From Clavaria fumosa (Eukaryota > Basidiomycota > Agaricomycetes > Agaricales > Clavariaceae), in contig OX637799.1 of the NCBI GenBank assembly GCA_951802425.1, positions 3,162,001-3,226,000 of the forward strand: a DNA stretch of 64,000 nt. The letters run 5' to 3'. The position numbers and the translations under genes are program-made. The notes beneath the pieces are model-generated. The model was given only the letters and a program-made list of their open reading frames with translations, had not been told where the DNA came from and ran no database searches. Shown here piece after piece: positions 1 through 63,600 of this stretch. How positions within the stretch are numbered: position 1 is the first letter of the stretch; the number at the start of each line of letters is the position of its first letter.

Positions 1-405
1 ACATGAAAATGGTGAGCATATCAGACTTGACTCCTCTATATTTTTTTCAGAATTTCTGAGCTTTACCCTGAGCTGCCCGGACTCGTATTCTGTCAGTAGG
101 ACCGATGTTGTGGCTGTGCTTGGTGTCCAGCCGCCGCAGCCTTACCTGCAAATACCATTGCTCATGGGTCAATTGCAACATACTGCAGTCAGGTAACATC
201 AGCATTTTAGAGGCAACAATTATTTAGAGAGACAACAATTATTTCGCAATTTTTTGGGTCTCATTGTTGGCTGTTACCACTTATTTTCTGTCCTAGGTAC
301 TTTTACCGACTTGGTGTTACAGCCACCGAGTCACTCACTTCTCAATTTCACTCACTTCTCAGTTTCAGGAGGCCGTGCAGATTGTGTATTCAGGTTAAAC
401 AAAAA

Positions 406-892: not shown

Positions 893-1470
893 CTGCATTT
901 ACAGTGCAATTGTGGTTAGAGGGGGGTGGATGAAGTAAAGGTTCTCTTGGATGCGCCATGAAAGTAAAGACATAATAGGTTGGAAGCTAAAACGTCGAAG
1001 AATTCCGAAAATGGTCAAATGGAAGAAACAGTGGCGGCAAGCGAAGGACAAACCGAAGGAATACTGGCCTCGTGACACTGATGTAGCATAATTCTCATCT
1101 TCATCTTGGCTTGTTTCGGGTACAGCGTATTTCGAAATTGAGCTGTGCTGACGATGGTAGTGATGGACCGTGGTGCAAATCACTAATTGACCACAGGAAG
1201 CTAAAACGTTGAAGAGTCTGAAAAAGGTCAGATGGAAGATAAAGTGGCGGCAAGCTCGTTTTGGGTACGGCGTATTCGAAATTGAGCTGCGCCGACGACG
1301 GTAGTGATGCATGATGATGGCGAATCATGATGACGGCGAATCATGACAGTGAATCGGCAATGCAGAATTGAGGCGATCTGGCGGTTCCCAACGGGTCTGT
1401 AATGCATCATTTACCGAGGGACCGCGGTGCAAATTGTTTATTGTGGAGGATCGCCGTTGAGCATCGTTGA
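893..1470. repeat. Imperfect tandem duplication in the intergenic spacer
   Basis: No convincing gene is seen. A block beginning GGAAGCTAAAACG at about 982 recurs at about 1196, followed in both by GGTCA-ATGGAAGA and GTGGCGGCAAGC, and later by a shared AAATTGAGCTG...GACG/ATGGTAGTGATG. The second unit lacks roughly 70 bp of the first. The spacer separates the minus-strand RNase H1-N gene from the plus-strand accessory gene and could hold both promoters. Confidence 0.6.
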
Positions 1471-1473
1471 GGG

Positions 1474-1483
1474 TTATATACAT
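1474..1483 (+). promoter_or_regulatory. Probable TATA box of the KDZ-1 accessory gene
   Basis: TTATATACAT lies about 80 bp upstream of the chosen ATG at 1556. An earlier out-of-frame ATG at 1507 opens a short upstream reading frame that runs past the main start (it stops near 1583). If transcribed, this could lower initiation at 1556. Inferred from position and motif only. Confidence 0.35.
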
Positions 1484-1555
1484 AGAGCATCGGCCTAAAA
1501 CTCACCATGTCAAATACGGGTTCAACTGTTGACTGCGTCATTGGCAACGTTTGCA

Positions 1556-3869
1556 ATGCCTGGAAAGCCATGGACAACCGATGAGCAAGCGAAGTTCCTT
1601 GCCGACTATTTGCCACAATACCTCGAGACGCAAGCTAGCGGATCGCTGTCGACTGTATTTTGGCCGCTCCTATATCGAGAATGGTTTCAAGTGTATCCAG
1701 AGAAAACCGCAGCGTTTCCAGGATGCGAGGAGTTGACAGAAGCTCAAGAGGGGCAGTTGAAGGTCAGATTGGACGAACGGCGCAAGGTGAGTGGAACAAT
1801 GCATCATCATATATCACGAGAGTCAGTCGCACATTTTGTAGATGTTGCGTACATGGTTCCGGTGGAGAGGGAAAAGAATGGTGCGCAAAAAAACCGGATC
1901 TGTCTTTGCAGCATCGATACCGAAAACACGCCAATTACAAGATACCAAGGTGTACTCCAAGCTGTTCTATGAGAGTAAGTTAAAGCAGATTGTTGAGGAA
2001 GAGATCGCGGGAAGGTCGCTTACTCGAACTGAAAAATTGGCTAAAATTGTAGAAGTAACAAAGAGGCAGTGGGCTGGAGAGCCTGATGAGGTGAAAATGG
2101 AAGTGAGGGCAAAGAAGGAGGAAATGCAGCGGGAACGCCAACCAGACCCCGACACCCCGCCTTCGGCTAAACAATACCAAGCTGCGATTGACGACCTAGG
2201 CTATGTCGCCAGCGCTTTTCTCAGGCATCTCAAACAGGCGACAAATTGGTCAGGATTCTTGGTAGTCGGTGGGCCTAAACCGGACCTTGGGGGAGACATC
2301 GCCCTCGCCTCGTACGTACCAGCCTAAATCGAATGTCTAGTCGCCATCTTAATGTTTTTTCAGGTTCTTCTCAGACAATGACAGCAGTCAAACGTTCCAG
2401 ACATTTCACCCTCAGTTTCAGAGTGGTGTGGTCGTACCGTTCGGCGATTATCTGAAAACGATCTATGGTGATATTTCCACTGATTTAAATTTATTACAAT
2501 TACACTTACGTTGAGGACTTCAGCTTCGAGCAGTGTTGCCCAATCGTCTCAAGCAGTCAACTCAAATCCACATTCATCATCGCATGGTACCATGCCTGTG
2601 GCCGGTAGCACACCTTTGAATGGCATCGTGGCTCGTTCTCTGCCCGTTAACCTTGATCCGCCGCACAACCCTGATCCACCGCCCAATACCATGCCTGTGG
2701 CCGGTAACGCACCTTTGAACGGCGTTGTGGCTCGTTCTCTGCCCGTCAACCCTCATCCGCCACTCAATACCATGCCTGTGGCCAGGAGCGCGCCTTTGAA
2801 TGGCGTCGTGGCTCGTTCTCTGCTCGTAAACCCTGATCCACCGCCCAATACCATGCCTGTGGCCTGTAGCGCACCTTTGAACAGTGTCGTGGCTCGTTCT
2901 CTGCCCGTCAACCCTGATCTGCCGCTCAAGATCGCTCCATCACACTTCTTGACTCTCAACATGACGAGTGGAGATCCATCATCCACCCTACTGCTTCCCA
3001 CTCTCCCTGACGCAGCGGGTGTGGAGCCGCCGACTGTACCTTCGCCGCCTTTGGATAAGGATCTAGATCCTGATTGGATGTCGCAACTTCCCAATAATTC
3101 ACTCAGTACTTTTGACATGTCTTCTTGCGCACTCTTTGGTGATGCATCCATATACATGTATCCTGATAATGCTACGCCAACGTCTAGCGGTGATGGATTG
3201 TCTATCTCAGCATCGTCCATCTTCCCTGCTCACCTGGCCAGCGGTCATGCATCACTTATCTCGATGTCATCCATCTTCCCTGCTGACCAGGCCGGCAGCC
3301 ATGCATCGCCTATCTCGGCATCACCCATCTTCCCTGATGACCAGGGTGGCGGTCATGCATCGTCTATCTCAGCATCGTCGATCTTCCCAGCTGGCCCTGC
3401 TGGCAGTTATTCATCACCTTTCACCGCATCGCCTTTCACTTTCACAGCTTCGCATGCATGCCCACCTGTGCACGCAGACAGTGGCCGCATCACATTGCCT
3501 ACAACTCTCAGTGATGCCACTACACCTGTGCCCGCACCCATTCTCCTTCCGATCGGCTCTGAAAACTCTTTGCGTCGTTCTACACGTCCTATCGTACTTA
3601 CAGAAAAGGTCAAAAAGCACAAATCGACTGCCGGAACTGGAAAAGAGAATAAGGCACCGGGAGATGGACGGAAGAGAGGGGTGGAGAGTCAAGAATGTCA
3701 GGATGCCATTCAGGATGCGGATCGTGGTCAAGGCCGAGGTGGTCAGGGCGGAGGCAGTCGAAGCCAAGGTAGTCGAGGACGAGGAGGAAATTCAAAAACT
3801 GCAAAGCGAGTACGCAGAGAGTCTCCAGGGCTTGGCACCGTTAGCGCAGCCATCCCGGAGTGTGGTTGA
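1556..3869 (+). CDS. KDZ-1 accessory gene (gene A), WF-helix DNA-binding-like protein
   Basis: Four exons, 1556-1786, 1842-2311, 2364-2467 and 2524-3869, join with consistent phase into an uninterrupted 716-aa protein. The start follows the homologue in KDZ-2: MPGKPWTTDEQ aligns with MAPTG-WTTPGQ. The N-terminus has a helical domain (FLADYLPQYL, FWPLLYREWF). Exon 2 opens with LRTWFRWRGKR, a WF helix like homeodomain helix 3 or a related HTH. Then follow VYSKLFYESK, EVTKRQWAGE, and a VVGGPKP motif shared with KDZ-2. Exon 4 is low complexity: four ~30-residue repeats containing MPVA-SAPLNGVVARSL, several SIFPADQAG-type repeats, then a basic LRRSTRP and an RGG-rich tail. Proteins of this type are common hypotheticals in mushroom genomes. 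DNA binding is inferred from the WF helix. It stays open although the transposase downstream is destroyed. Confidence 0.75.
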
Positions 3870-3984
3870 CATTTCTTGCTAGTCGTACCGCTGATATATA
3901 CGTTTCTTGCAATCTTGACAAACAATACAATATATTTGGTCATGGCGAAGGACAGGTAGGACTACAGGTAGGACTACATAACGG
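3870..3984 (+). other. 3' flank of gene A
   Basis: Short A+T-rich sequence after the stop, probably 3' UTR, with a local duplication of GGTAGGACTACA at about 3956-3978. The left end of the satellite-bearing insert NA-1 should be near here, but no CAGGCGAT terminus is visible, so that junction appears deleted or rearranged. Confidence 0.3.
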
Positions 3985-5571
3985 CAGCAGTGGGAAGGGC
4001 GAGACGGGTGATGCATGATGGTGGGGATGGTAGGGATGAGCAACGTGTGACGGCGGTGCAGCGTGATGTGTGTGCGGGAACAACAACGAGTGGGTAATGC
4101 ATGATGGCATGGGGATGGCCATAATGGGTAATGCATGACGATGTGGGAACAGCAGCGATGAGGGTGTGATGTATGAACAGCGATGAACAGGGAATGGCGA
4201 CAATGAGTGGGGTGACAGGGTGATGGCGACGGGCAGCTGGGACGAGCAATGCGCGATTGCGGTGGCGGGAATGGCGGCAATGGGTGCGGAACAGTGACGA
4301 TGAGTGGGGCGATGGGGTGACGATGACAGGCAGGTTGATGATGATGAGCAGGGTGATGCATGACAGGGTGATGACAACGAGCGGGGTGATGCATGGGGCG
4401 TAGAATAGCGAGGACGAGCAGGATGATGCATGATGCGGCGGGATCTGCAGCGACGGGTGATGCATGACGGGTGCAGAATAACGACAATGAGCAGGGTGGT
4501 GTCGAGGGGATGCATGACGATGCAAAGCATGGTGTGACGTGGCGGGTTGCCAAATGGCGGGGTAATGCATGACGGACAATGTGGGAACAGCGACAACGAG
4601 TGGGTGATGCATGATGCTGCGGGATCGGCAGCAATGGGTGATGCATGATTGGTGCAGAATAACGACAATGAGCAGGGTGGTGTCGAGGGGATGCATGATG
4701 ATGCAAGGTGTGGCGTGACACGGCGGGTTACCGAATGGTGGGGTAATGCATGACGGACAACGTGGGAACAGCGACAATGAGGGGGTGATGCATGACATGG
4801 TGGGATCGGCAGTGATGGGTGTAGGGATGCCACGGTTCGGTTCTGAACTTTGGTTCGAACCTGAACTGGACTGGACCGAACCGAAAATGAGGTTCAGGTT
4901 CAGCCAAGTGGGTGAACCGAACCAAAATTGAGGTTCAGAAGCCCAAATTTGGGCGAACCATTACCTTATTTGGTAAAAGTCCGGTCCAATGAACTGGACT
5001 TGGACCGAACTCAGGTTCAAGGTTCGGAATTTGGCCTGAACTGGACCTAAAGTCTGGTTCGGGGTTCGAAAAAATTGGCCCTGAACCGGACTTAACCGGA
5101 CCGTGGCATCCCTAGATGGGTGATGCATGATGGGTGCAGAATAACGATGATGAGCAGGGTGGTGTTGAGGGGATGCATGACGATGCAAGGTGTGGTGTGA
5201 CGCGGCGGGTTACCGAATGGCGGGGTAATGCATGACGGACAATGTGGGAACAGCGATAACGAGGGGGTGATGCATGATGCGGCGGGATCGGCAGCAATGG
5301 CTGGGACGGGGTGATGCATGACAGCGGGACAATGCATGATGGCAGGGGTGAGGGTGAGGGCCCAGGATGGGGTGATGCATGACGGCGGGACGGGGGTGAC
5401 GCATGACGGCGGGACGGGGGTGATGCATGACGGCTGGGACAGGGTAATGCATGACGATGCAAGGCATGGCAAGCACGAAGGCACAGAAGCTAATTACCCT
5501 TGTTGATGCATCACCTATTTATGGTAGTTAGCTTATGTGATGCATTATTAATAAAACACTTGAATCGCCTG
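3985..5571. mobile_element. NA-1: satellite-type non-autonomous KDZ-family element, right end preserved
   Basis: About 1.3 kb of degenerate repeats built on GGTGATGCATGACGG, interrupted by a hAT-type MITE. The right end is CTTGAATCGCCTG (5559-5571), whose reverse complement CAGGCGATTCAAG is identical to the left end of NA-2 at 13087-13099. Next to it are TGATGCAT motifs, as in NA-2. The right flank (5572 on) is KDZ transposase coding sequence, so this element or a deletion connected with it truncated the KDZ-1 transposase. The left terminus is not recognisable. The long histidine/serine/proline-rich open frames on the minus strand here are products of the repeat and are not genes. Confidence 0.6.
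4822..5114. mobile_element. hAT-type MITE, copy 1 (293 bp)
   Basis: Terminal inverted repeats TAGGGATGCCACGGT and ACCGTGGCATCCCTA bound a 293-bp sequence full of GGTTC/GAACC motifs. It is flanked by a perfect 8-bp duplication GATGGGTG (4814-4821 and 5115-5122). The 8-bp duplication and TAGGG-type ends are typical of hAT elements. There is no coding capacity, so mobilisation would need a transposase from elsewhere. A second copy is at 50760-51051. Confidence 0.85.
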
Positions 5572-6482
5572 ACTATGGCTTCCATCCGCTATCGGTGACA
5601 AAGCCCTATGTGAACCTCGTCTATATTCATCTGAATGGGACCTTCGCCATGCACAAGCCAACGATTCTCTCCATGATTTACGGCGATACTTACAGCTTCG
5701 ATCCCATCTGTATAAGCATAAAGACCGATTCACCTCTGGCCAGCGGGCCAATACTCGGGCCAATTTGACTATTTCAAGAGTGCAAAGGTACATTAATGCA
5801 AGTATTGCCCAATACTGCGCAGCACGGAAGGCACTGCATAACCTGGCCCCACACCTGGAAAAAGATGACGCCTGGATGCAGTTGCTGCCTGAATTGCGCA
5901 ATGAAGATGTGCGCCCAATGAATACTGGGTTGGAAGGGGAATCGGAAGGCCGGCGATCCCTCTCGTGGATTTGGCGATCCAACGAGCTGCCAGTGGCAAG
6001 TGGCGGCGAGCGCCTGCATGAGTGTAGGTGATACCACAGAGATTTTGAATAATGCTGACAGTTCTGTAGCTCTCCGTGTAGAGTGGTGCAAGTCAAGAGC
6101 ACGTGCACAGCGCTGGAGAGAAGAAGTCCGTTTACTCTTGGAGGAAATGAGACGTGTCTTACAGTTTTTGCGATGGAATGAGGGAGTCTGGAAAGCACGA
6201 GGTGGATTTTTGGAATCTGATCAAGATGTTGCAGAGCGCACTACCAACACACTACTTGGTAGCCGCCTACTACTCCAACGTAGAATGGAAGGTGTGCGGG
6301 CATACGCACAACGTCAAGCTTCCATCCAACAGGAACTCCGTATCCACTTTCAATCCCTCTGGCAACCAGTTCCCGCTCTTGTTATTTCACAGATTGGTCG
6401 TGACAAAAGCACCACCTTTACCTTGGATTCCAAACTCGTCAAAGATCTCTCACAGGCTGCATCATTTTTAGTGGTAAAGTAA
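5572..6482 (+). pseudogene. KDZ-1 transposase, C-terminal remnant
   Basis: Two exons, 5572-6023 and 6070-6482, align with the last two exons of the KDZ-2 transposase. Matching landmarks are SEWDLRHAQANDSLHDLRR, YCAARKALHNLAP, EGRRSLSWIW, then LRVEWCKSRARAQRW and EEMRRVLQFLRWNEG before the stop. The intron between them keeps the position and phase seen in KDZ-2. The CxC2 zinc domain and all DDE catalytic motifs are missing. The reading frame enters directly from the end of NA-1. KDZ-1 therefore cannot supply its own transposase, although its accessory gene is still open. Confidence 0.85.
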
Positions 6483-6534: not shown

Positions 6535-7341
6535 GAGAAAAATATGTCCTTGTCAGCATCATGTTGCATTACTCCCATCTGCTGGTGCCCTCAGCATTGC
6601 ATCCCCTTGTTAAAGTTCCCTGTGTATTGCATTACACCCATCTCATGAGATCCAAATGTCTTGCATCACTCCCTTTTCTGTGGGTTCCTAGCATTGCATC
6701 ATTCCCATATCACAGCCCTTAAGTGTATTGCATCACTCTCTTTCTGTGAGTTTCCAGTGCATTGTATCAGACCTACCTCATGAGTTCTAAATGAGTTCCA
6801 AGTGTTGCATCACTCCCAGCACATTGCATCACACCCATCTCATGAGTTCTCCCAAGATGATGCATCAGTTCCCTTCTGCAAGTTCTTGGTGTGTTGCATC
6901 CCATGGTGTGAGCCTCAAGTGCTTTGCATCACTTCTGACTCATGAGTTCCAAGTGCTCAACCAATTACCATCTTTAATTGAAGATTTCCATTTCATTTCC
7001 ATTTCATCTTTTCATATTGTGTGCAACTACATCTGAGCCTTTGTACCCTGGTTTATATGAAGAAGGAGATTTTCCTCCCTCCTACAAACTCCTAGGCCCT
7101 AGGGTGTTGCATCAGTGTCACATAAAGGCATTGCATCACTCCCATCCTGTAATTCCCACTACCTGCATGAGTGTTGCATCACTGGCATGTTAGTGTTGCA
7201 TCACTGCCATGTTAGTGTTGCATCACTCCCACCCTGTAATTCCTACTACCTGCATGAGTGTTGCATCACTGCCATGTTAGTGTTGCATCACTGCCATGTT
7301 AATGTTGCATCACTGCATGTTAGTGTTGCATCACTCCCACC
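6535..7341. repeat. KDZ-1 terminal satellite array, left part
   Basis: No gene. Degenerate units of roughly 30-60 bp contain TGCATCACTCCCAT, CTCATGAGTTCC and, nearer 7341, AGTGTTGCATCACTGCCATGTT. The core TGCATCA is shared with the KDZ-2 arrays. Copia-1 inserted here after 7341, and the array resumes at 12003. Confidence 0.7.
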
Positions 7342-12002: not shown

Positions 12003-12276
12003 CCACCCTGTAATTCCTACTACCTGCATGAGTGTTGCATCACTATCACATTAGGGCATTGCATCACTCCCATCCTGTAATTCCTACTACCTGTGTGAGT
12101 GTTGCATCACTGCCATGTTAGGGCATTGCATCACTCCCATCCAGTAATTCCTACCTGCGCAAGTGTTGCATCTCTCATTGCATCACCTCCTTGGCAGGTG
12201 AGCTGCCGTTTTCCATGCATCGCTACTGTGCGGTGACTACCGCTATATTGTTGCATCAATATCCCCCCATCGCCTG
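12003..12276. repeat. KDZ-1 terminal array, right part, and KDZ-1 right terminus
   Basis: Continuation of the array split by copia-1 (GTTGCATCACT, CTGTAATTCCTACTACCTG units). The last bases are CCCCCATCGCCTG, whose reverse complement CAGGCGATGGGGG carries the CAGGCGAT end shared with KDZ-2, NA-1 and NA-2. From 12277 the sequence is copia-3 coding DNA, so 12276 is read as the right end of KDZ-1. The 8-bp duplication would be TAACGATA, and its partner lies left of the window. Confidence 0.65.
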
Positions 12277-37015: not shown

Positions 37016-37022
37016 GGAGCTG
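37016..37022. repeat. Target-site duplication of KDZ-2, left
   Basis: GGAGCTG, repeated at 50484-50490. Joining the two flanks at one copy restores gypsy-B gag (minus strand GAGATTGCA-CAGCTCC-AAGCCTGC), which corresponds to the uninterrupted copy at 61455-61480. With one more base on the left it would be an 8-bp duplication with one mismatch. Confidence 0.9.
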
Positions 37023-39488
37023 CAGGCGATCCTGTAGTTTTGATGCATCATATGCACCAAATTGATGTATTTGAGTGATGAACAATTAGCATCAATTGAT
37101 GTATGCACCTGATGTATTGCCTTGGGGCATCTGATGCATCACCTCCTCATTGGGTGTGGATGGCACATCTGATATATCACTGATGTAAGATGATGCATCT
37201 GCCATAGCCATAGACAATATATCATCCATACATAATGTTGATATATCAGCATGTCAGCATCTGATGCATCATCCCAGCTGTTCTGGAAATTTGGTGCATC
37301 TGATATAATATGACATGGACATCCAATGTATCACCTGCTTATTAGCTTGGAGCCTGGTTAATACATTCAATACATCACTATCCAAGCATCTGATATATCA
37401 GTTGCCATAGAACCTGGGGGTACACCCAATGTATCATTGCATAAGCATCTGATGTATTGCCTTGGGGCATCTGATGCATCACCTCCTCATTGTGGTTGGC
37501 ACATCTGATATATCACTGATGTCAGATGATGCATCTGCCATAATCATAGACAATATATCATCCATACATAATGTTGATATATCAGCATGTCAGCATCTGA
37601 TGTATCATCCTGGCTGTTCTAGAAATTTGGTGTATCTGATATAATATGACACAGACATCCAATGTATCACCTGCTGATTGAGGTTTATACATCCAATACA
37701 TCACTGTCCAAGCATCTGATATATCAGTTGCCATAGATCCTGGGGGTACACCCAATATATCATTGTATAAGCATCTGATATATATATTGCCTTGGGGCAT
37801 CTGATGCATTGATTCCTCATTGGGTGTGGATGGTGCATCTGATATATCACTGATGTCAGATGATGCATCTGCCATAGCCATGGACAATATATCATCCATA
37901 CATAATGTCGATATATCAGCATATAAGCATCTGATGCATCATCCCAGCTGTTCTGGAAATTTGGTGCATCTGATATAATATGACATGGACATCCAATGTA
38001 TCACCTGCTTATTAGCTTGGAGCCTGGTTAATACATTCAATACATCACTATCCAAGCATCTGATATATCAGTTGCCATAGAACCTGGGGGTACACCCAAT
38101 GTATCATTGCATAAGCATCTGATGTATTACCTTGGGGCATCTGATGCATCGCCTCCTCATTGTGGTTGGCACATCTGATATATCACTGATGTCAGATGAT
38201 GCATCTGCCATAATCATAGACAATATATCATCCATACATAATGTTGATATATCAGCATGTCAGCATCTGATGTATCATCCTGGCTGTTCTAGAAATTTGG
38301 TGTATCTGATATAATATGACACAGACATCCAATGTATCACCTGCTGATTGAGGTTTATACATCCAATACATCACTGTCCAAGCATCTGATATATCAGTTG
38401 CCATAGAACCTGGGGGTACACCCAATATATCATTGTATAAGCATCTGATGTATTGCCTTGAGGCATCTGATGCATTGACTCCTCATTGGGTGTGGATGGC
38501 ACAGACATCCAATGTATCACCTGCTGATTGGCCTGGAGCCAGGTTAATACATCCAATACATCACTGTCCAAGCATCTGATATATCAGTTGCCATAGAACC
38601 TGGGGGTACACCCAATATATCATTGTATAAGCATCTGATGTATTGCCTTGAGGCATCTGATGCATTGACTCCTCATTGGGTGTGGATGGCACATCTGATA
38701 TATCACTGATGTAAGATGATGCATCTGTCATAGTCATAGACAATATATCATCCATACATAATGTTGATATATCAGCATGCCAGCATCTGATGTATCATCC
38801 TGGCTGTTCTGGAAATTTGGTGCATCTGATATATGGACATCCAATGTATCACCTGCTGATTGGCCTGGAGCCAGGTTAATACATCCAATACATCACTGTC
38901 CAAGCATCTGATATATCAGTTGCCATAGAACCTGGGGGTACACCCAATATATCATTGTATAAGCATCTGATGTATCAGTCTGCTTGCCAGATATGAATTC
39001 AGCTGGTACATCCAATGCTGTGCATTATAATTTGGACATCAAATGTATCAGCTTATTTGCTTAATATGGGTCCTAGGAATTTGATTATTTGGACATCTGA
39101 TGTATCACCTGCCAATTGCCTTCAAATCAGCTGGTGCATCAAATACATCACTTCCTGAACATCAATATCAGTCTGTAGACTGGATACATCCAATGTATGG
39201 CATCTGATGTATCACTTTGCTTGCCTAATATGGGTCTTAGGAATTTGACTGGTACATCTGATATTGTATATTACATTACAACTTCCACATCTGATGTATC
39301 TACTGCTGCTTAGTTTGCTCTGTCCAATATATCACTACCTGTGCAGCTGATATATCAGCCACTATGGAGCCTGGGGCCACATCCAATATATCATTGCATA
39401 GGCATCTGATACATCATTCCGCTTGGCCAATGGCATGGGAAATGGGTTGATACATCCAATACATCACTCCCTGAACATCTGTTGTATC
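37023..39488 (+). repeat. KDZ-2 left inverted satellite array
   Basis: Dense TGATATATCA, TGATGCATCA and TGATGTATCA palindromes in higher-order units. The landmark CTTGGGGCAT recurs at 37121, 37461, 37791, 38131 and (as CTTGAGGCAT) 38458, then 38647, so four steps are 327-340 bp and the last is shorter. The distal end toward gene A is more degenerate. The orientation is opposite to the right array. There is no gene here. Open frames rich in QMPQGN or ISDIS are repeat products. Confidence 0.9.
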
Positions 39489-39578
39489 AGCCCCTTGGAA
39501 TTGCATAGTTTCAGACAGGCTTGGTACTGTATAGTTTTGTTCGTCTTTCCCTGCACACAACTCATCACCCCGCAGAAA

Positions 39579-41614
39579 ATGGCACCAACTGGGTGGACAA
39601 CTCCAGGACAGCGAGAGTTCCTGATCTCATCAATGCCTGAATATCTTGCTTCCCAGAAGGCTGGCCGACTCTCATCATTCTGGACTCCTATCTTTGCTGC
39701 ATTCTTTGCTAAATTCCCAGTAGTGCTTCCAGTGCACGAAAAAATGCCCCAAATTAATGAAAATGATACATCAGAAGAAAAACGTGCGGATGGTGAGAGG
39801 TCAGCCCATGGTCATGCTGTGCAGGCTCGTCAAGAGGTGAGTTGCAGGGATGGCAGCTGAGGATAACAATACTCACGAGCAATTAAGCAAATCCAGAACT
39901 GGTTTCGCAATCACTCAAAAGTCTCAAAGCGAAGGCGCAGGGCAGGTCTGAATGACTTTGTTCAGACAGGCAGGAAACCTAAACGCATCCACAAGCTGAT
40001 TGAGATCTACAGTAAGCACTACTTCGACATCAAGATTCGTCCTTTGGTGGAACAGCGACTCGAGGCAGCAACCCCTGCACCAGCCGAAGGGGGTGCGGCA
40101 GAAAATCCCCGAGAGAAAAACAAACGCCGATTGGCCTTACGACATCTCATTACCCAGGAATGTTGGGCTGCCGAGACTGATGAGGTACGAAACAAGATAG
40201 AGCAGCTCCATGAAGGCGAAAAAAAGGTGAAGGAAGAAGAGGACAAGTTAGAGAGTAGTGATGAGGATGGGGAGGAGGAGCTATCTGCGCAGGCCTATCA
40301 AAAGTGATTTATCATTTGGGAGCCCTTTCTTTCGAGCTAATGGCTTACAGCAATATTGATGACTTCCCTCGGATTTTGAAGAGTCGCACCGAGCACTGGT
40401 CTAGAAAGACTGGGTGGGTCATATTCACAGTGGTAGGAGGTCCACGTCCAAGTAGTGGTGGGGCAATCGAGGTCTTAAGGTCTGTGGTCTAGAAGAAAGG
40501 AGTACAATTTCTAATAATACTCTAGCATCGAGAGTGGCACCCTCACACCTGAAGGGAACAGCTTTAGTGAGGTTGCACCCGAAGAGTGCACAAAACTCTT
40601 GGAGGCATTCAATAAATATGCACACATCGCTTTTTGTGAGGATTCATAAGCCTTAGGTTATGCTGGGCTAATGCATGTTCAGCACCGGAGATACGCACAA
40701 AACGTTCTTTACAACCCGCACAAGCCGTCAATTCCGATGTATCAGCTCAGATGCTAGACCCTGCCACCACTCCCTCTGAACCTTCAGCAGATGTCGCAGC
40801 AGATCCAAAGACTAGATCCGTGGCTACTGAAGATTCTGGTTCGGACTCGGACTCTTCTGCGCCAACTGAAACTACTTCAACATCTGACTCAGACTGCTCG
40901 CATGATTCCAAGCGCATTCGAATTGGGGAGGAGTCAGAATATGATAGGTTAAGAGATGCGCATATTGCTCGTAACCAGAAGTTGCTCAAGGATATGGGCC
41001 TTGAAAGAGTAGGTCCCACTGTCGAGGAACGAAAGAAGGCAGAAAGGGTGGCAGCGAGGGCAAGGAAGGCAGCTAAGAAGGAACGGCGCATCAAGAGGGC
41101 TCAGGAAAGAAGCCCACGCAGGACGCGTTCAGCAGTTGAGCAAAACGTTGGCGGGCCACCGGACTTGGGAAGCTCAGCACTTCCTGTCGACTCTCAATCT
41201 TTTCCTGCACCCGAGTTGCCATCGTTTCCAGACGGTTCAACACTTCCTTCTGGCCACTCTACGCCTTCTGCTACACAAGAGTTCTCTGGCCATGCTTCCC
41301 CTGCCCCAGAAACGTCGTCACCAACACCATTTTCTACTCCAAAGCTCCCAGTCACATCTACGCAACTACTTACATCTGTGCCGGCCTCAGACCCCATGTT
41401 CATGCCAGTCTCATATCCCACGCATGAAACATCCCTCCCGACTCACAGCATGCCCGGTCCTCCAGCAGTAAACCAGCAGAAGGGCAAGGCTCAAGCACAA
41501 AAAGGCAAGCCCAGTCAGGCTCCGGCGAATCCAACTGTACCTGCTCGACGCTCGGGGCGAGAGGTCATTGCCCGAACCATGGATGATGGCACAAAACTCC
41601 AGATTGCCAAGTAA
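39579..41614 (+). CDS. KDZ-2 accessory gene A, WF-helix DNA-binding-like protein (614 aa)
   Basis: Five exons: 39579-39836, 39888-40303, 40351-40479, 40526-40635 and 40683-41614. All introns are 46-51 bp GT-AG, and the phases close to 615 codons including the stop. It is homologous to the KDZ-1 gene at 1556: WTTPGQREFLISSMPEYL at the start, QIQNWFRNHSKVSKRR opening exon 2 (a homeodomain-like recognition helix with WF-N), YSKHYFDIKIRP, YQNNIDDF, VVGGPRP and QAVNS. Exon 5 has an acidic serine stretch, then EYDRLRDAHIARNQKLLKDMGL, a lysine/arginine-rich helix (nuclear localisation likely), a proline/serine linker and PARRSGRE. The third intron is absent from KDZ-1, but removing it aligns both proteins without a gap. 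It probably acts in the nucleus with the transposase or on the arrays (inference). Confidence 0.8.
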
Positions 41615-42055
41615 GCTCCATGATCGCTACTTTATTTGGTCGTTGAGACAATACTTTGCAGAAAATGATGTCAATGAAGCAATCCATCAACGTTGAAGAA
41701 AATGATGGTGGCAGTCGCAGGCCGCCCAAAACTTTTACGTAATTGGCAGCTGGTGATGCGGTGACGGCCTCCAATTCTGTGTTTCATTTTGTTTTCCCTT
41801 TTTGTGTTGCACCAGTGGCTGTCACTGATTCCGGCAACTCCGGGAACCCTGCTCCATCAATAAAAGTTTCAACTCCTGCTTCCGTACTTATGGAACGCTT
41901 ATGTAACCAGTTGAAACAAACATATTAATTACATAATGCAGTTTGGAGCGCGATTTGGCACAGCATTCAGGTTCTTGCACGTGCTTGCAGGTCTAACTCA
42001 TATCAGTTATCACAAATATATGTAAATATATTACTTAATCTGATTCTGACTGCCT
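41615..42055 (+). other. Spacer after gene A
   Basis: A possible extra 3' exon of gene A may lie here, because the codons before the stop read CCAA|GTAAGC with a downstream GCAG. Such splicing would only add about ten residues. Otherwise no gene is seen. Confidence 0.3.
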
Positions 42056-43200
42056 GCACTCAGCGCTCAGCGTTCAACGTTCAGCCCACACCGTCTGGTG
42101 CCGTCTGGCAACCTCTGCTCGCAGCCCCTGCACTCAGTGCTCAGCATTCAACGTTCAGCCCACACCGTCTGGTGCCGTCTGGCAACCTCTGCTCGCAGCC
42201 CCTGCTCGTAACCTGCATGGCTCCCTCTGCTCACCACTCATGCCGAATGCTGCCTGGTTCCCTGCTCTCCGATAATGGCCCCAGTCCCCACCATTGGTCT
42301 GTGACCACTGTTGGGGGCTTGGGCCATTGCCACTGCACGCTGCTGCCGCGTTGTTGGCCGCCGCCGCCGTCTGTAGCAGTCGCTGTCGTCGGCCGCTGTC
42401 GTCGTCCGCCGCCGCCGTCTGTAGCAGTCGCTGTCGTTGGCCGCTGTCGTCGTCTGTTGCGGTGGTCACCATCGTCATCTGCTGCTGTGGTGGTTGCCGT
42501 TATCAACAGCAACCATCATTGTCGCTGGCTGCAGCCGCCGTCATCGTCGTCGTTGTTGCTGTGAGCGAGCATGCTGCCAGACTGTACAGGGTGCTTTGGT
42601 GAATGAGATACGAGGAATACAGCAAAACACATCGTTGCCGCCGCGAGCGAAAGACGAAGGAAGGAGGGTATGTATGTCATCATTGGGAGCCGCCATCGTT
42701 GTCGTTGCTGGCCCCTGCAGCCGCCATCGTCACCGTCGCTGGCCCTCATCGTCGTCGTCGTCATTGTCGCTTGTTCCTGTAGTGCCATCATCGTCTGCTG
42801 CAGCCGTTGTTGCCGTTGTTGGCTGCCGTCGTCGTCTGTTGTGGTGGTCACCATCGTCATCTGCTGCTGTGGTGGTCGCCGTTATCATCAGCAACCATCG
42901 TTGTCGCTGGCTGCAGCCGCCGTCATCGTCGTCGTTGTCGCTGTGAGCAAGCATGCTGTCAGACGTACAGGATGCTTTGGTGAATGAGATACAAGGAGTA
43001 TGGCAAAAACACATCGTTGCTGCTGCGAGCGAAAGACAAAGGAAGAAGGGTATGTATGTGAGCGAGCATGCTGAAAGACTGTACAGGGTGCTTTGGTGAA
43101 TGAGATACAAGGAGTATGGCAAAAACACATCGTTGCTGCTGCGAGCGAAAGACAAAGGAAGAAGGGTATGTATGTGAGCAAGCATACAGCAAAAACGTAG
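42056..43200. repeat. Repeat-rich spacer of KDZ-2
   Basis: Three repeat types: a roughly 75-bp direct duplication (CACTCAGYGCTCAGC...CCGTCTGGCAACCTC, 42057-42207); the 55-bp palindrome copy 3 (42274-42328); GTCGTC/GCCGCC trinucleotide-rich blocks (42340-42960); and tandem units of roughly 110 bp containing GAATGAGATACAAGGAGTATGG and CGAAAGACAAAGGAAGAAGGG (about 42590-43195). No reliable gene. Confidence 0.8.
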
Positions 43201-43369
43201 CCTGAAGGCATTGTCATGCGGCGGAGTTATTAGGCACAATCGTTCATGGGTCTCGGACAAGTCCTGGACAGTGTCGTTCAAACTCAACTTGGCCCTCGAC
43301 TCTGCTTTGACTCAACTCCCCTCTAACACTGATGAAATCCCATCAAAACGATAGGTATGAGAAGGAGTT

Positions 43370-44114
43370 GGCGGTTAATCAACATATCAGTAAGGCCAAG
43401 ATTCAAAAGCAAAATGTAGATAAGCGACGCAGGTGGAGAATGAAGTCAGCGCATTTGTTTGTCTCTCATGTCATCTCACAATCTCTGCCTGTCTAGTAAT
43501 ATTGAGAAGGTCCGTGAGACAGACCGCATACGCAAAGCAGTGTGAGTCAGTTCTCATGACCCTGTCAATGCATTGGGGGCAGAGACATTTCGGACTCCAT
43601 AGTGCTCGCAGCAAAAAGGCAAAGGAAAAACACGAGCAGGAAGGATGCGAGGGCAGAGCCATGTGAGTCAATCAGACAACAATCATTTCCACCCCCACCC
43701 TGACAATTATTTGTTAGTGACATTTTCGACATCCAGAATGGGTCATTCTCTGACGATGATACCTCGCAAAGTTCGCCTCATCTACAGGAACGCCTTGCCG
43801 AAGTCCACAGAGGCATTGAAGATTGGACGAGGAGTTGGGGACCAGTAAACCAGTGGACACAGAAATTTCGAGAGGGGTATTGTGCTGCTCGGCAGAGCGG
43901 CTGCGTTGGCGAGTGGCTGGAGGGCTGTTCACTGATGGTGAAGGAAGGGAAGCAACTGTCAGAGGTGCTGACAGAGATGGCCAGACTGGAGTGGCCACCA
44001 AATGCTGGGAGTATGTTGCAGCAAGCATTTGAATCTATGGCAACACTACAGGAAGGAATAGCTCTCCTCCGAGCGCAGATCTATGTATCAGACGTATATT
44101 CCCTAATATGGTAG
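43370..44114 (+). CDS. KDZ-2 gene B, small unknown protein
   Basis: The last exon, 43718-44114, is open for 131 codons (SFSDDDTSQSSPHLQERLAE, EDWTRSWGPVNQW, GYCAARQSGC, MLQQAFESMATLQEGIALL) and ends 45 bp before the transposase ATG. A preceding exon 43583-43662 (RHFGLHSARSKKAKEKHEQ) joins it in phase through GTGAGT...GTTAG. The 5' part (KELAVNQHISKAKIQKQNVDK, EKVRETDRIRKA; about 43370-43540) probably belongs to the gene, but I could not fix its splice sites or start. The protein seems helical and charged, with no family I recognise. Position and strand suggest it is carried by the element, possibly as a partner of the transposase. Confidence 0.45.
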
Positions 44115-44159
44115 CACCACCAAACGACCTCCTGCACATGACCTTCTCGTTGGCGAATC

Positions 44160-47100
44160 ATGGCCAGAAAGTCCAACAAACGCAAGGACCCTCCTGTCCG
44201 ACTCACACACTACGTGTCCCCAGCACCACTTCCTGAATTCTCTGGCCCTTCTTTCAGCAGGCATACCAACTATATATTCAATGGTTTGGCTCGCAGCAAC
44301 ACCACATTCTTACCTGCCCCCCCTTCGCCCAAGAAGCAGCGGCATCAAACAGTGGATCTTGGCTCCTTTGCCAACACCAAGGCTCTACGTATGGGGGACA
44401 ATTTCGTTTTTGACTTTTATGAACCCAACCTCGACATCGACTCTTATCTGATGGAGCAGTTGTGTGACGAGGATAAATGCCCACCACCCGTGCGAGCCCA
44501 GCCTGTATTATAATAAATCAAAGTTGCTGATACCTTTGTACCTTTGTAGAGTAACCCTTCTCTTATATGGATGCAAGAACAGGAAGTGTTCCTATCTGAA
44601 ATGATTCGCCTTGAAGGGCGTGGATATGCCAAGAACTTTTCAAAATGTATTTCTTGTGGAATAGCGGATGGCACATACCGATGTAGTGACTGTCTCGGTA
44701 CCCTTCTTTATTGCGGTCCTTGCACAGTGAGACGACATGCTGAAGTGCCTTGCCATCGTCTGCAGGTCAGTTTTTTGGTTTCTCATCTCGAGTGTCATTA
44801 AATATGTGACATTATACAAAGGAATGGACCGGGACTTTTTTCAGGCGTGCTACACTGAAAGATTTGGGTCTCCGTGTTCAACTTGGACACCCTGTTGGCG
44901 AGACTTGTGCCAATCCCAAACCCATACCTGGAAACAACTTCGTATTGATGGATACGCATGGAATCCATACGGTTGCGGTTGACTACTGTGGCTGTGAGAT
45001 AGCCCAAACACAATATATCCAACTTCTTCAAAATCGGTGGTTTCCTGCGACAGTTTCATTCCCCAAGACTGCCGCAACATTCCGTCTTCTTGGACATTTC
45101 CATTACCTTCATCTTGAGTCTAAAGCATCCGCGTTTGAATTTTACCGAGGAATTATGAGAGAGACTGACAATACAGGTCTAAACGAACCTCAAGTATGTG
45201 CACCTACCCATAGTTAAGTTATAGGTCATGCTCAAAATCAAGTCGTTATAGATGCGCTATGAGGCATTCATGAGAATGATGCGGCAGTGGCGTCACTTGA
45301 AGAATCTGAAGCGTGCTGGTAGGGGACATGATCCAGCTGGAATTGATGCAACAAAAACTGGCGAGTGTGCCGTCCTATGCCCTGCATGCCCGCAACCTGG
45401 GATAAATTTGCCCTCTGGATGGGAGAGTGCACCCCCAGCCATTGCGTCTGTCTTTTCCTCGATTGCCTAATGCTAGCACTGATTAATCAAATCTAGGTGG
45501 CGCTACACACAATTCTTGGCCATAGATGCAAACTTTCGACTTCAACGACGGCTGGTATCAAGTGACAGGGTTGATCCAGGCCTCAGCAAGGGTTTTTCTT
45601 ACATTGTTCATGAAGAGGAGTATAAGGCATATCTTGAGCCTCGGAGATCCATAGTCCAAGAGGTATGTCTCTTTTCTCATTCAATCATTCATTACTGTTT
45701 ATATATGGTGGCCAGCGAAGCACTTGTGTTACTCATAACGCAGTTGATAATGCTGATACCCGGGATTCGCGAGGCTTGGCTGCAACTGGCATTGGGACTG
45801 TGGACTGTGCACGGCATGGTATGAAGCGTCCTGCCTCTGTTGGTGACCTCCAAAAGGGTGAACGGTAAGTGATATTCTGTTTAGTGGCTATGTAATATAT
45901 AATAAAAATTCTAGATATGTAAACATGGACTTTCTGTTTTTCAGCAGCTTGAGGAACACGAAGCTCAAGAACATTGTCATATCATATGACATTGCATGTC
46001 AATGGAGTCGGAACCTCTGGAAACGGCTTGACACCTACCCTCAATGGATGCAACTGGACATTGAAAATATTCGGTTCAAATTTGTTGTTCCAAAATTTCA
46101 CTTACCGGCACATATTGAAAAGTGCCAGACAACGTTCTCACTCAATTTGGAGACAGGGGTTGGGCGAACAGATGGCGAGGGACCTGAGCGAGGATGGGCA
46201 AACAGTAATTGTATAGGGCCAAGCACAAAAGAGATGGGTCCTGGTACCCGACGAGATATCCTTGATGATGTATTCGGTGACTGGAACTGGAAAAAGGTAA
46301 CAACCATGGGTAAGTGTTACATCCCCAAATCTCGAAACATGAAAATAACACTTGTTGGTTGTAGGGCACTCTCTCCTCAGTAAAGTCCTGGAGGCAATCA
46401 AAGAGGAGGCGTCTGCGATGCAATCTCTCAATGATTTTGAGATGTCCCTGGAAAGAGCAGAATTGCTGCAAAAATGGAAGAGTGAGGTTCGAGCATGGGA
46501 ACGCTCCAAAGAGGGCTGCAATCCATATGAATCCCAGGTTTCCTGTAAGTGCATTGGCTTTCCTCCCCAATGATAAGGTGCTAACATATACTTAGCATTG
46601 ACACAACCCAAAGTGCGGCTTCAACTAGCTGAAGAAGAGCAGCTTGAGTTCTCGAGCTTGAATGGCAAGCAAGGGTTCTCCAATATGCATCCGAAGGTGC
46701 CACGTACTGCTTGGATAATGGAAGGGCTCGAGCTTGAGGCACTACAGTATTTATCCATATGCAGTATTTATTGTATAGACCTGACTAATCCACAAATCAT
46801 AGATGGCAACTTGCCCTTGAATGGAAGGCACTAGGCCCCCATTCCACTGATTTGCAACGTGCCAAATGTCTTGAGAAGTCCAACCGGCTGTGTCGACGAA
46901 TTGAGACCTGGCGCGAGGTGCAACGATTCTATATTCCTGGCATAGCTGTGTTACTTGCTGAATTGGAGGAGGATCATCCTACTGGCTCTTCAGCATCACC
47001 TCAAGACATCCCTCTTTTTCTTCCGTCAGCTCTTAATGGGCAGGTTGCTTGTTCTGCCAAGCTGAAGGACAGCGAATGGGTCCTCCGCCTTGCTCAAGCA

Positions 47101-47834
47101 AATGATGCACTCAATGAACTCCGAAGTCATCTGCGGATTCGCACACACATTTGGTCACACAAGAGACGTAATGTGAGAGGGGTTGCTGCCCACACACGAG
47201 CACAGGAGGCAATTACTCGCCAAAACGAATGGGTGGCGAGCAGTGCGAGAAAGTATCGTGCTGCACATGGAGCTCTGAGCAACCTCGCAGTTGACCTGGA
47301 TAAAATTGGATGGGAAGCTCTTGTTCCAGTTTTGAAGGATGAGGATATACAGGGGATGAAGCGGGAAACTGACCGTGTTTCAGAGGGCCGGCGTCGACTT
47401 TCTTGGATCTGGACTGACTTCACTGCTGCAAAACATGCCAATGCTGACCCAGGGCTGAATGATGGTAAGCTTTCCTTGACTTGCAAGATCCCAGAGCTTA
47501 CATCATCACAGCTCTTCGGGTGGAATGGTGTAGATCAAGAGCAAGAGCCATGCGGTGGTCTGAGGAAGTGTTACTACTCGAGGAGGAAATGCGGCGTGTG
47601 CTGGAGTTCCTCAGATGGCATGCAAATTGGTGGACAAATCAGAAGAAAAAATCTGTTTCATCAATGGAACTAGCTGAAGGATTAACGGCATATTCAGCAC
47701 GCCAGGCTGCCCTGCGAACAGCATTAGCTGACCACTTTCAAGCCCTTTGGGAGAATGTCCCAGCCCTCCTGCACTTAGGGCAACGTCACAGTGAGGTGGC
47801 TGGCCATGCCCAGGTGCTCACATCTTCTGACTAG
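44160..47834 (+). CDS. KDZ-family transposase with CxC2 zinc domain (1050 aa)
   Basis: Eleven exons: 44160-44504, 44550-44765, 44822-45193, 45252-45445, 45497-45662, 45716-45864, 45915-46309, 46365-46544, 46596-46746, 46803-47464 and 47512-47834. All introns are GT-AG of 45-58 bp and the phases close to exactly 1051 codons. The CxC2 cysteine cluster (CISCGIADGTYRCSDC, CGPCTVRRH, then VDYCGC) is at about residues 140-240 and should bind zinc and DNA. The DDE nuclease core follows: AIDANFRLQRR, SYDIACQW and DGEGPERGW carry the catalytic D, D and E of the KDZ superfamily, with HNAVDNAD, TVDCARH and YVNMDFLF between them. The C-terminus (EGRRRLSWIW, LRVEWCRSRARAMRW) is helical. It would cut and join the element ends in the nucleus. 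The KDZ-1 remnant at 5572 matches its last two exons. Confidence 0.92.
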
Positions 47835-50483
47835 GTACAGTACCCACACTGTGATATTTTATGATCTGTATATCTTTGTTGAGAGCTCAGTGATATATCA
47901 TAGACACAGAAGTGATATATCATGTACTGATCTGGTCAGGGATGTGTCATCAATGGCTGTAGGGAGCAAGCATGATAATAGTCTGGATAGGGTTGATACA
48001 TCAGATGCTGACATGCTGATATATCAACATTATGTATGGATGATATATTGTCTGTGGCTATGACAGATGCATCACCTGTCTGACATCAGTGATATATCAG
48101 ATGCACCATACACACCCAATGAGGAGGTGATGCATCAGATCAATACATCAGGTTCTATGGCAACTGATACATCAGATGCTTGGAAAGTGATGTATTGGAT
48201 GTATTAACCAGGCTCCAGGCTCATCAGCAGGTGATACATTGGATGTGTGTGTCATATTATATCAGATGCAACACAATTTCCAGAACAGCTGGGATGATAC
48301 ATCAGATGCTGACATGCTGATATATCAACATTATGTATGGATGATATATTGTCTATGGCTATGGCAGATGCATCATCTGACATCAGTGATATATCAGATG
48401 CACCATCCACACCCAATGAAGTGATGCATCAGATGCCCCAATTCTATGGCAACTGATATATCAGATACTTGGACAGTGATGTATTGGATGTCTTAACTGG
48501 GCTCCAAGCTAATCATCAGGTGATACATTGGATGTCTGTGTCATATTATACCAGATGCACCAAATTTCCAGAACAGCTGGGATGATACACCAGATGCTTA
48601 CATGCTGATATATCAACATTATGATATATTGTCTATGGCTATGGCAGATGCATCATCTTACATCACTGATATGTCAGATGTCCCATCCACACCCAATGAG
48701 GAGGTGATGCATCAGATGCCCCAAGGCAATATATCAGATGCTTATACAATGATATATTGGGTGTACCCCCAGGTTCTATGGCATCTGATATATCAGATGC
48801 TTGGAAAGTGATGTACTGTAACCAGGCTCCAGACTAATCAGCAGGTGATATATTGGATGTCCATGTCATATTATGTCAGATACACCAAATTGCTAGAACA
48901 GCCAGGATGATACATCAGATGCTGACATGCTGATATATCAACATTACATATGGATGATATATTGCCTATGGTTATGGCAGATGCATCATCTGGTCAGTGA
49001 TATATCAGATGTACCCTCCACACCCAATGAAGAGGTAATGTATCAGATGGCCCAAAGCAATACATCAGGTGCATGCACCAATTGATTTGATGGCAACTAA
49101 TATATCAGATACTTGGACAGTGATGTATTGGATGTATTAATTAGGCTCCAGGCTAATAGCAGGTAATACATTGGATATCCATGTCATATTATATCAGATG
49201 CACCAAATTTTAGAACAGCCAGGATGATACATCAGATGGTGACATGCTGATATATCAACATTATGTATGGATGATATATTGTCTATGGTTATGGCAGATG
49301 CATCATCTGACATCAGTGATATATCAGATGTGCCAACCACAATGAGGCGGTGATGCATCAGATGCCCCAAGGCAATACATCAGATGCTTGTGCAATGATA
49401 CATTGGGTGTACCCCCAGGTTCTATGGCAACTGATATATCAGATGCTTGGATAGTGATGTATTGAATGTATTAACCAGACTCCAGGCTCATCAGCAGGTG
49501 ATACATTGGATGTGTGTGTCATATTATATCAGATGCAACAAAATTTCCAGAACAGCTGGGATGATACATCAGATGCTGACATGCTGATATATCAACATTA
49601 TGTATGGATGATATATTGTCTATGGTTATGGCAGATGCATCATCTGACATCAGTGATATATCAGATGTGCCAACCACAATGAGGCGGTGATGCATCAGAT
49701 GCCCCAAGGCAATACATCAGATGCTTGTGCAATGATACATTGGGTGTACCCCCAGGTTCTATGGCAACTGATATATCAGATGCTTGGATAGTGATGTATT
49801 GAATGTATTAACCAGACTCCAGGCTCATCAGCAGGTGATACATTGGATGTGTGTGTCATATTATATCAGATGCGACAAAATTTCCAGAACAGCTGGGATG
49901 ATACATCAGATGCTGACATGCTGATATATCAACATTATGTATGGATGATATATTGCCTATGGCTATGGCAGATGCATCATCTGACATCAGTGATATATCA
50001 GATGTGCCAACCACAATGAGGAGGTGATGCATCAGATGCCCCAAGGCAATACATCGGATGCTTGTGCAATGATACATTGGGTGTACCCCCAGGTTCTATG
50101 GCAACTGATATATCAGATGCTTGGATAGTGATGTATTGAATGTATTAACCAGACTCCAGGCTAATCAGCAGGTGATACATTGGATGTCTGTGTCATATTA
50201 TATCAGATGCACCAAATTTCCAGAACAGCTGGGATGATACATTAGATGCTTATATGCTGATATATCAACATTATGTATAGATGATATATTGTCTATGGCT
50301 ATGGCAGATGCATCATCTGGTCAGTGATATATCAGATGCACCATCCACACCCAATGAGGAGTCAATGCATCAGATGCCCCAAGGCAATACATCAGGTGTA
50401 TGCACCAATTGATGCTAATTGTTCATCACTCATATGCATCAATTTAGTATATATAATACATCATTCCTACAGGATCTGGTGGG
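47835..50483 (-). repeat. KDZ-2 right inverted satellite array
   Basis: Inverted counterpart of 37023-39488, starting almost directly after the transposase stop. GATGCCCCAAGGCAAT recurs at about 48713, 49361, 49698, 50034 and 50373, giving a 336-339 bp unit in the distal part. The units nearest the end are most alike, and those nearest the gene more degenerate. The last 45 bp contain CATCACTCAT...ATAATACATCA and the terminus CTACAGGATCTGGTG. Confidence 0.9.
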
Positions 50484-50490
50484 AGCTGTG
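50484..50490. repeat. Target-site duplication of KDZ-2, right
   Basis: GGAGCTG, identical to 37016-37022. Confidence 0.9.
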
Positions 50491-60689: not shown

Positions 60690-63600
60690 ACCTATGCTAC
60701 AGACCTGGTAAAGGTCCTCTTTGCTCTGAGCAAAATTACTGGAGAAGGATTTGCTGCAGAATGGGTGAATATGAAAGTGGAAGAGATCCTGGGTAGTGGC
60801 AAGGCTGGAACCTGGGTGGTGTTTGTGGAGGAACTGAAGTGAGCATTTTGATGACCCAAACAACTGAGCAACTGCCCTTGCAGACATTGCTAGTCTGAAA
60901 CAGGGTGCCATGACAGCACCAGAGTACTTTGCAAAATTCGAGACACTGTTCTGATGGGCAGAGATGAGTGTAGAGAAGGACTCAGACATCCTAGTCCATT
61001 GGCTGGAGCTGAACCTGAGTAGGAGGTTGGTGGAGAAGATACTGTATATGGTGTCTCCCTGATGCCAGAGACATATGGGGGATGGAAAGTGCTGGTAGAA
61101 AGACTTGATGCCCAGCAAAGATGACTTGATGGGATAGTTGTGGAATGAAATATGCAACCCACCATGACCCTACCACGACCTTTCACAACCTTTCGCAACC
61201 TTTGCACAACCTGCTGCGACCCTACCACAACCTTTCATGACCTTTGCATGACCTGCCATGACCCTCTCATGCCCTCTGGATGTGGCCATGAGCTGAGGAT
61301 GGGCCCCTGCTGCTGAGAGACATTGTTTCCGATGCCACCAGACTGGGCATGCTGTCTAATTCTGCCCCCTGCCCGATATGTGTCTGCAGGTCCCAAGGGC
61401 CCAAACCTGTGCAGTATCAGGTGCCCCCCAAATGGCAGAGGAATACAAGAAAGAGATTGCATGGTTCCAAGCCTGCCTGGAGCTGTACAAGAGAGGGCTC
61501 CTGCTGGGGAGAAGAACTGTGCCAGCCCCCATTCCATCCCTGTGCCTGCTGCAAGTATACCCTGATATACTATCTTGCAGCAGAGACATACCCAAATTGG
61601 GGCTGAGGTGAAGGAGGAAGTGAGGCCAGCAGAGCACCCACCCATGGTGCAGCCAGAAGTGGGGAAACATGTGCCACAAGAGCTAGCCATCCAGGTGCAC
61701 TTGGAGGCTCTCAGCACTGGCAAGGGGGCTATGACAAAGGCCCTTGTTGACTCAGGATGCACCAACTGCTTCATGGACTTGGAATGGGCAAGAAGAGTGG
61801 GACTGGAGCCATCTTCCCTGCTGAACCCAATCACGATGTACAATGTGGATGGGTCACAGAATAGAGAGGGTAAAATCCAGTATGGAATTGAGCTGCTGGT
61901 GATGATGGGTGACCATCGTGAATGGATCCACTTCCTGCTAGGGAAGATCCAAACCCACAAGGTCATCCTTGGGCATGACTGGCTCAAGCAACACAACCCT
62001 GACATTGACTGGAAGAAGGCCCCCCACAGTGTTCTCCTCCCCTCGAGCCCCTGCACCCCCAAAAATGAGTACCCTCACATCTGCGAGTATTTTGGACACC
62101 CATTTTCCCAACTCTGGCCCTACCCCTGATTGGCCCAGCCGCTACCCTTCAGTTTTTAGTGAAGCGGAGTGGGATGAACTTCCCTGCTCCTGACCAGACT
62201 TCAATATTAAGATTGAGTTCAAAAAGGACCCTGAGCACCTCTCTTCCAAGCTATACTCACTGACATGGGAGGAGATGGTGGAGATGAACTGTTGGGTGGA
62301 TGAGCAGCTTGCTTCTGGATGAATCCAGCCCTCAAAATCCCCAAATGCCAGCCCCTTCTTCTTCAAACATGAGAAGGACAAGCTGTGGCTGATTATCGAC
62401 TACTTGAGGCTGAATGCACACCTGATCAAGGACAAGTACCCCCTCCCCCGCATCTGAGACAGTGGATGTGCTTAAGGGAGCATTGATCTACTCTAAGATT
62501 GATGTGAAGGGAGGTTTCCCATCCATGCAGGTCTGGCCAGAGCACCAGCACTGCTGCACCTTCTTGACACCTCGTGGACTCTTTGAACCAGCTGTCATGT
62601 GGTTTGGACTGCAGAATGCACTGGCCACCTTCCAACGTTTCATGAACCATGTGCTGAGGGAGGAGATTGTGGGAGGGCATGTCTGAGCATATGTGGATGA
62701 TGTCATTGTGTTTGCAGAGGATTTGGAAACACACCAGTATTGGATGGATCAGGTCTTGAGGAAGTTTGGAGAGAATGGGTTGTGTCTCAAACTCAGTAAA
62801 TGCAAGTTTGAGAAGAGTGAGATCATCTTCCTGGGGATGAAGATCTCTCACAACTGACTAGAGCATGATCTGGCCAAGGGTGTGGCAGTCTGAGATTGGC
62901 CACATCCTAGGAATGTGAAGATGTCCAGAAGTTCAATGGGATGTTAAACTACCTCTGCTGGCACATCCCCAATCTTTCTGCTCAGGCAAAGCCACTCTTC
63001 TGGCTGACTGGGAAGGTTCCATGGAAATGGGAGGAGGAGGAGGAAGTGGCCTTCCAAGATCTCCACCTGGCACTCATATCAGCCCTGGTCTTGGCTTTGC
63101 CACAAGACAAAGGGAGATGGAAGGTAGAGACAGATGTGAGTAACTTGGTGACTGGTGGAGTCCTTTCACAGCAGCAGATGGATGGGACCTGGAGAGTTGT
63201 GGACTACATCTCCAAGGCCCTCACTGCAGCTGAGAAGAACTACAATGTGTATGACAAAGAGTTCTTGGCTGTGATTTGGGCACTTTGCAAGTGGCAGGCA
63301 TACCTCATTGGAGCTGATGAGATGATTGAGATCTGGATGGACCATGCAAACCTTCAGTACTTCTGGAAGCCTCAGAAGTTGAAGCTGAGGCAGGTCTGTT
63401 GGGTTGGGGAGCTCCAGTGTTTCGACTTTGAGATAAAGTATTGCACTGGCAAGTTGAATACAAAGGCAGACACTCTCCTGGAGACTGGACTATGGAGAGA
63501 TGGTGGAGGAGGATGCACTGGTGCAGGTTTTCCTGGAAACAGAAGTCTGTGTGTAATTCACATTGGAAATGGAGATGCTACTCCAGAAAATAGCATGGTA

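Follow-up and report, generated by a model that had tools for sequence, protein, structure and literature searches.

A KDZ transposon of Clavaria fumosa with defined ends, inverted subterminal arrays and a recurrent companion gene

The element, its ends and its copies

The window analysed here is a stretch of 64,000 nucleotides of the genome of Clavaria fumosa (C6:3162001-3226000 in an assembly of 48.76 Mb and 17 contigs). Within it lies a complete-looking transposon of the Kyakuja-Dileera-Zisupton (KDZ) group, which contains a KDZ transposase gene, a second gene designated gene A, probably a small third gene (gene B), and two subterminal arrays (Table 1). We regard it as near certain that this segment is a transposon, and it is a member, not previously known, of a known group.

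Table 1. Features of the KDZ element in the window, its sister copies and the second KDZ family. Positions are those of the window unless a contig is given.
Feature	Position	Strand	Size or content	Basis
Left target-site duplication	37016..37022		GGAGCTG	
Complete-looking KDZ element	37023..50481		13,459 bp	Ends recur in the short family and in two long copies; 7-bp duplication
Left terminal sequence	37023..37037	+	CAGGCGATCCTGTAG	Genome matches far above control
Left subterminal array	37028..39490	+	Repeat units of ~190-336 bp, dense in TGATRYATCA	
Gene A	39579..41668	+	6 exons, ~615 aa; homeodomain-like and HMG-box-like regions (both weakly supported)	
Spacer between genes A and B	42053..43196		Low complexity and tandem repeats	
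Gene B (probable), main exon	43704..44111	+	136-aa open frame	
KDZ transposase	44160..47834	+	11 exons, 1050 aa; CxC2 domain followed by KDZ	Pfam matches, splicing model, relatives
Right subterminal array	47990..50476	-	Inverted relative to left array (~91% over 1.4 kb)	
Right terminal sequence	50467..50481	-	CACCAGATCCTGTAG (reverse complement), ending at 50481	
Right target-site duplication	50482..50488		GGAGCTG	
Sister copy C5	C5:2338110-2352565		Duplication TCGTTGG	
Sister copy C2	C2:1260118-1269348		Duplication CGATGCC	
Family X, second distinct KDZ element	C6:3155497 to window 5571 (window part 1-5571)		12,075 bp; gene A relative at 1556-2478	

The two terminal sequences agree at 12 of 15 positions, and both termini read CA..TG. 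When up to one mismatch was allowed, the left terminal sequence had 57 matches in the genome compared to 3 for the reversed control, and CACCA[C/G]ATCCTGTAG had 56 exact matches compared to none for its control, the CACCAG form of the right end being found only in the three long copies. A previous sequence-only reading had described an apparently intact KDZ transposon at this position, and this description is borne out by two further long copies having the same ends, the unbroken frames and the Pfam matches to KDZ and CxC2. The left end had been placed correctly at 37023, the point that corresponds to the start of the other copies; these had been named as a possible source of contradiction, and their ends coincide with those of the window copy. 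The right end, in contrast, had been set 2 bp too far out (50483, with an outer limit at 50490), since the shared end falls at 50481 and the duplication finishes at 50488. The 7-bp duplication GGAGCTG proved exact on both sides of the element, whereas its extension to 8 bp with one mismatch had to be rejected because exactly 7 bp are duplicated in the long copies (3 of 3) and in 16 of the 18 short elements with two ends. It should be noted that the alignment of the window copy with its sister copies, the comparison with the empty site inside the window and the palindrome counts and array comparisons given below were made with the right end 2 bp too far out.

Two long sister copies, which lie on contigs C5 and C2, share these ends and are each flanked by a 7-bp duplication of their own. 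In the main blocks of the alignment they show 99.2-99.95% identity to the window copy. The possibility that the structure arose by chance or by misassembly is extremely improbable: copies on other contigs share the ends while being flanked by different duplications, and the shared end signature is far above control. Nothing was found in favor of an assembly artefact, and it was rejected. A 107-bp query made of the joined flanks produced 40 scored matches among 341 candidates, one of which is the right flank of the window itself; the remaining 39 run across the junction without an insert, the best at 94% identity, in agreement with the empty site that had been reconstructed from the sequence. 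The uninterrupted copy reported inside the window was also recovered (61207-61998, 85% identical across the junction). By eye, an open frame beside the junction (61566-62129) is like a gypsy protease region.

The sister copies differ from the window copy in several respects. The C5 copy contains extra repeat sequence, as well as a 531-bp stretch inside transposase exon 2 (C5:2346267, locus L009) that starts with the end of the short family described below. The C2 copy is missing about 4 kb, gene A included, and has a one-base length difference or gap in transposase exon 7. These lesions would fit a scenario in which the copies spread recently and the window copy no longer moves. However, the transposase and gene A models of the window copy are both unbroken, 10 of its 11 transposase exons are 100% identical to those of C5 and 10 of 11 to those of C2, and exons 1-5 of gene A are 100% identical to those of C5. 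We consider a dead element unlikely, and the window copy is a candidate autonomous element, as had been proposed.

Some 50 further places in the genome bear the end motifs. Twenty short loci were fetched, 18 of which are two-ended elements of 708-1089 bp; an exact 7-bp duplication flanks 16 of these 18, and none was seen for the other two. Every one of the 18 has one CAGG-type end and one CACCA-type end, which makes the two ends distinguishable, and together they contain 140 copies of the palindrome TGATRYATCA in 18,614 bp. These elements constitute a short non-autonomous family with the same ends as the long element, by which they are probably moved in trans. One short element (C7:182965-183784, within locus L029, C7:182771-184000) has half of a KDZ domain match on either side of it and seems to interrupt a different KDZ gene.

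The transposase and its companion genes

The introns of the transposase model are 45-58 nt long with GT..AG borders, and the reading frame has no internal stop and a single stop at its end. A version of 1040 aa was rejected since alignment with a relative (P0004) revealed a wrong acceptor for intron 6, which left the protein 10 residues short; comparison with relatives supports the unbroken model of 11 exons and 1050 aa that had been predicted previously. The Pfam search, for which the 1040-aa version was used, returned KDZ (PF18758, 2.7e-56, profile positions 1-217 of 217) and CxC2 (PF18803, 5.9e-42), both far above cut-off, and this confirms the assignment to KDZ transposases with a CxC domain. 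A protein search identified 1,744 relatives among 7,989 scored candidates. The closest, among the best 120 of the 1,744, are 46-51% identical, the transposase being aligned along nearly its whole length, and the best relatives (~50% identical) belong mostly to genera that we take to be Boletales.

Gene A is unbroken, as predicted, although the present model gives 615 aa instead of the 614 aa previously stated, with uncertainty in the last few residues. A profile search of the gene A protein returned no Pfam match. Profile comparisons of its N-terminus matched mostly homeodomains, with weak single-domain E-values, and the profile and fold comparisons together suggest a protein with a homeodomain-like and an HMG-box-like region, which is probably, by prediction from sequence, a DNA-binding protein. 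The protein searches for gene A scored only the ~8,000 candidates sharing most words with the query; the single sequence found three proteins, all from Mycena, and an 8-row profile found one. When a 930-residue Mycena protein was used for a fold search, no Foldseek match under E 0.001 was obtained from its low-confidence model (pTM 0.28), and weak rows for the HMG-box protein TFAM occupied ranks 10, 20 and 36, interspersed with unrelated matches. The abstract of Iyer et al. (PNAS, 2014) reportedly names a divergent HMG domain among additional KDZ-associated proteins of fungi; since the second region of gene A resembles an HMG box, it may encode the accessory protein reported there.

The genome contains at least 185 KDZ domain matches (counted exon by exon) and 64 TET/JBP matches. 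The analysis of linkage covered 150 listed KDZ matches and all 64 TET/JBP matches, 8 of the latter being below the cut-off of the family, with assumed sizes for contigs C8, C13 and C14. Of the gene A-like loci, 25 after merging of 42 matches by hand, 22 have a KDZ match no more than 12 kb away, mostly head-to-head, and of 11 gene A families grouped by hand 10 show the linkage; copies within one family are not independent, by which the significance of the linkage is overstated. Gene A is a recurrent partner of KDZ in this genome, a little-studied companion gene found again and again beside KDZ transposases. Where TET/JBP and KDZ are linked, their arrangement is mostly tail-to-tail; for gene A and KDZ it is mostly head-to-head.

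The probable third gene, gene B, has relatives at five genomic loci, apart from the three copies of the element itself. These are 26-30% identical, all five within 5 kb of a listed KDZ match and four of them within 1 kb of gene A. Family Y accounts for three of these loci, which leaves about three independent cases.

Subterminal arrays in two KDZ families

The palindrome TGATRYATCA is concentrated at the ends of the element, with 28 and 33 copies in the outer 2.5 kb at each end (61 in ~5 kb), 3 copies in the middle 8.45 kb and 2 in the remaining 50.6 kb of the window. Family X, which reaches into the left side of the window, has at least five copies that are ~98.5-99.8% identical, ends reading CAGGCG.. 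and CACTAG.., and inverted arrays of a different repeat unit, TGATGCATGA (the joined copy used for this array analysis has one base repeated). The window copy is followed by its 7-bp duplication ACTATGG at 5572-5578. Of four copies examined, two have both ends and a 7-bp duplication (ACTATGG, CTGAGTC), and the fetched sequence of the remaining two did not contain the right-end motif. The same plan with another unit supports a shared architecture, not a shared binding word. TGATRYATCA was absent from six of seven other gene A loci, for each of which the 8-10 kb fetched did not reach the ends, and was present 8 times in the seventh, L049, where a short element is found. It was likewise absent from two 3-kb stretches of a TET-positive family, which contain no element boundary.

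Two observations concern the neighborhood of family X. At ~5572-6480 it is nested in what by eye resembles the C-terminal portion of a different KDZ transposase gene, and tandem arrays of TTGCATCAC-like units at 7131-7339 and 12003-12154 could represent the ends of additional KDZ elements.

Relation to known systems and proposed mode of transposition

TET-positive Kyakuja elements are described as having 7-bp duplications, CA..TG termini and no terminal inverted repeats (TIRs), and Zisupton and Dileera as having 8-bp duplications (Kojima 2025, PMC12730594). The previous statement that related elements make 8-bp duplications is true of Zisupton and Dileera, which belong to the same superfamily, whereas the present element makes 7 bp like Kyakuja. 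It resembles Kyakuja-1_LB and Kyakuja-2_LB of Agaricomycetes (PMC12730594) in its KDZ transposase, duplication length and CA..TG termini. Unlike these TET/JBP-positive elements without TIRs, it has no TET/JBP match inside (the closest match to PF12851 is 55 kb away from gene A), and it has partly matching termini, inverted subterminal arrays and gene A. The absence of TIRs, stated for two TET-positive Laccaria families, does not extend to the present element; we read this difference as variation between families, and 'Kyakuja type' is therefore a provisional label. The mobile Cryptococcus elements KDZ1-KDZ3 (9-11 kb) are also basidiomycete KDZ transposons, but have CxC1, terminal repeats of 139-241 bp and duplications of 8 bp (KDZ1) or 4-8 bp (KDZ2, KDZ3) (PMC12810828), as opposed to CxC2 and 7 bp here. 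Intact KDZ elements of Pleurotus are preceded by CxC2 (PMC7641404). In the accessible literature that we found on KDZ with homeodomain, HMG, subterminal repeats or miniature elements, a pairing of gene A with KDZ was not described, and neither a homeodomain-like N-terminus nor palindromic arrays turned up there among KDZ accessory genes of fungi. The Marasmius oreades paper does not mention KDZ.

The En/Spm transposon has subterminal repeats near both ends and a two-protein scheme of TnpA and TnpD, TnpA being the protein proposed to bend and pair the ends. The present element is alike in the subterminal repeats and the two-protein scheme, but the En/Spm transposase is unrelated to KDZ and the duplication is shorter. 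With a probability of roughly 0.8, we propose that this is a young KDZ element of Kyakuja type which looks complete, lacks TET/JBP and transposes by cut and paste. Observed in the sequence are the sister copies of over 99% identity, the exact 7-bp duplication, the defined ends, the unbroken transposase and gene A, and the short family. In the likely mechanism, gene A gathers the ends: the transposase would cut at the CA..TG ends and insert at sites staggered by 7 bp, while the gene A protein would bind the TGATRYATCA palindromes of the two inverted arrays and, by analogy with TnpA, bend and pair the ends; short elements, in which end signature and palindromes are retained, would be mobilised in trans.

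The proposed role of gene A in gathering the ends is supported by its linkage, its domain resemblance and the arrays. Alternatively, in the same KDZ element, gene A might be carried along as a passenger or might regulate the element or the host (as a transcription factor or an anti-silencing factor, for instance), the arrays might be tandem expansions or a target of host silencing, and the transposase alone might recognise the ends. Several observations favor this: the C2 copy without gene A keeps its ends and 7-bp duplication (the loss may postdate insertion), KDZ transposases possess a CxC2 cysteine cluster of their own, 127 of the 150 listed KDZ matches lack a gene A match at a distance of 12 kb or less, and the array units are unlike between the two gene A families compared. 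The proposed gene A step is weakened by these unlike units, by the copy without gene A and by the weak domain scores of gene A. Against it stand the repeated linkage of gene A to KDZ, the two predicted DNA-binding-like regions and the retention of palindromes in the short elements. We rate this alternative as a serious one that falls somewhat short of an even chance, and retain gathering of the ends by gene A as the preferred explanation.

More tentatively, and with rather less confidence than would be needed to favor it, the KDZ elements of Agaricomycetes may come in two alternative kits, one carrying TET/JBP and the other a homeodomain-HMG protein (with gene B in some) that would recognise palindromic subterminal arrays and assemble the transposition complex. 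If true, this would be a two-protein end-recognition system of a kind not described for KDZ in the accessible literature that we found. To our knowledge, end recognition by fungal KDZ elements is little studied, and KDZ genes are very numerous in this genome. The young element described here, for which both ends, empty sites, a short family and a candidate end-binding protein are available, is a clean system to separate the roles of transposase and companion, and it offers a way to ask why TET/JBP is carried by some KDZ elements and gene A by others.
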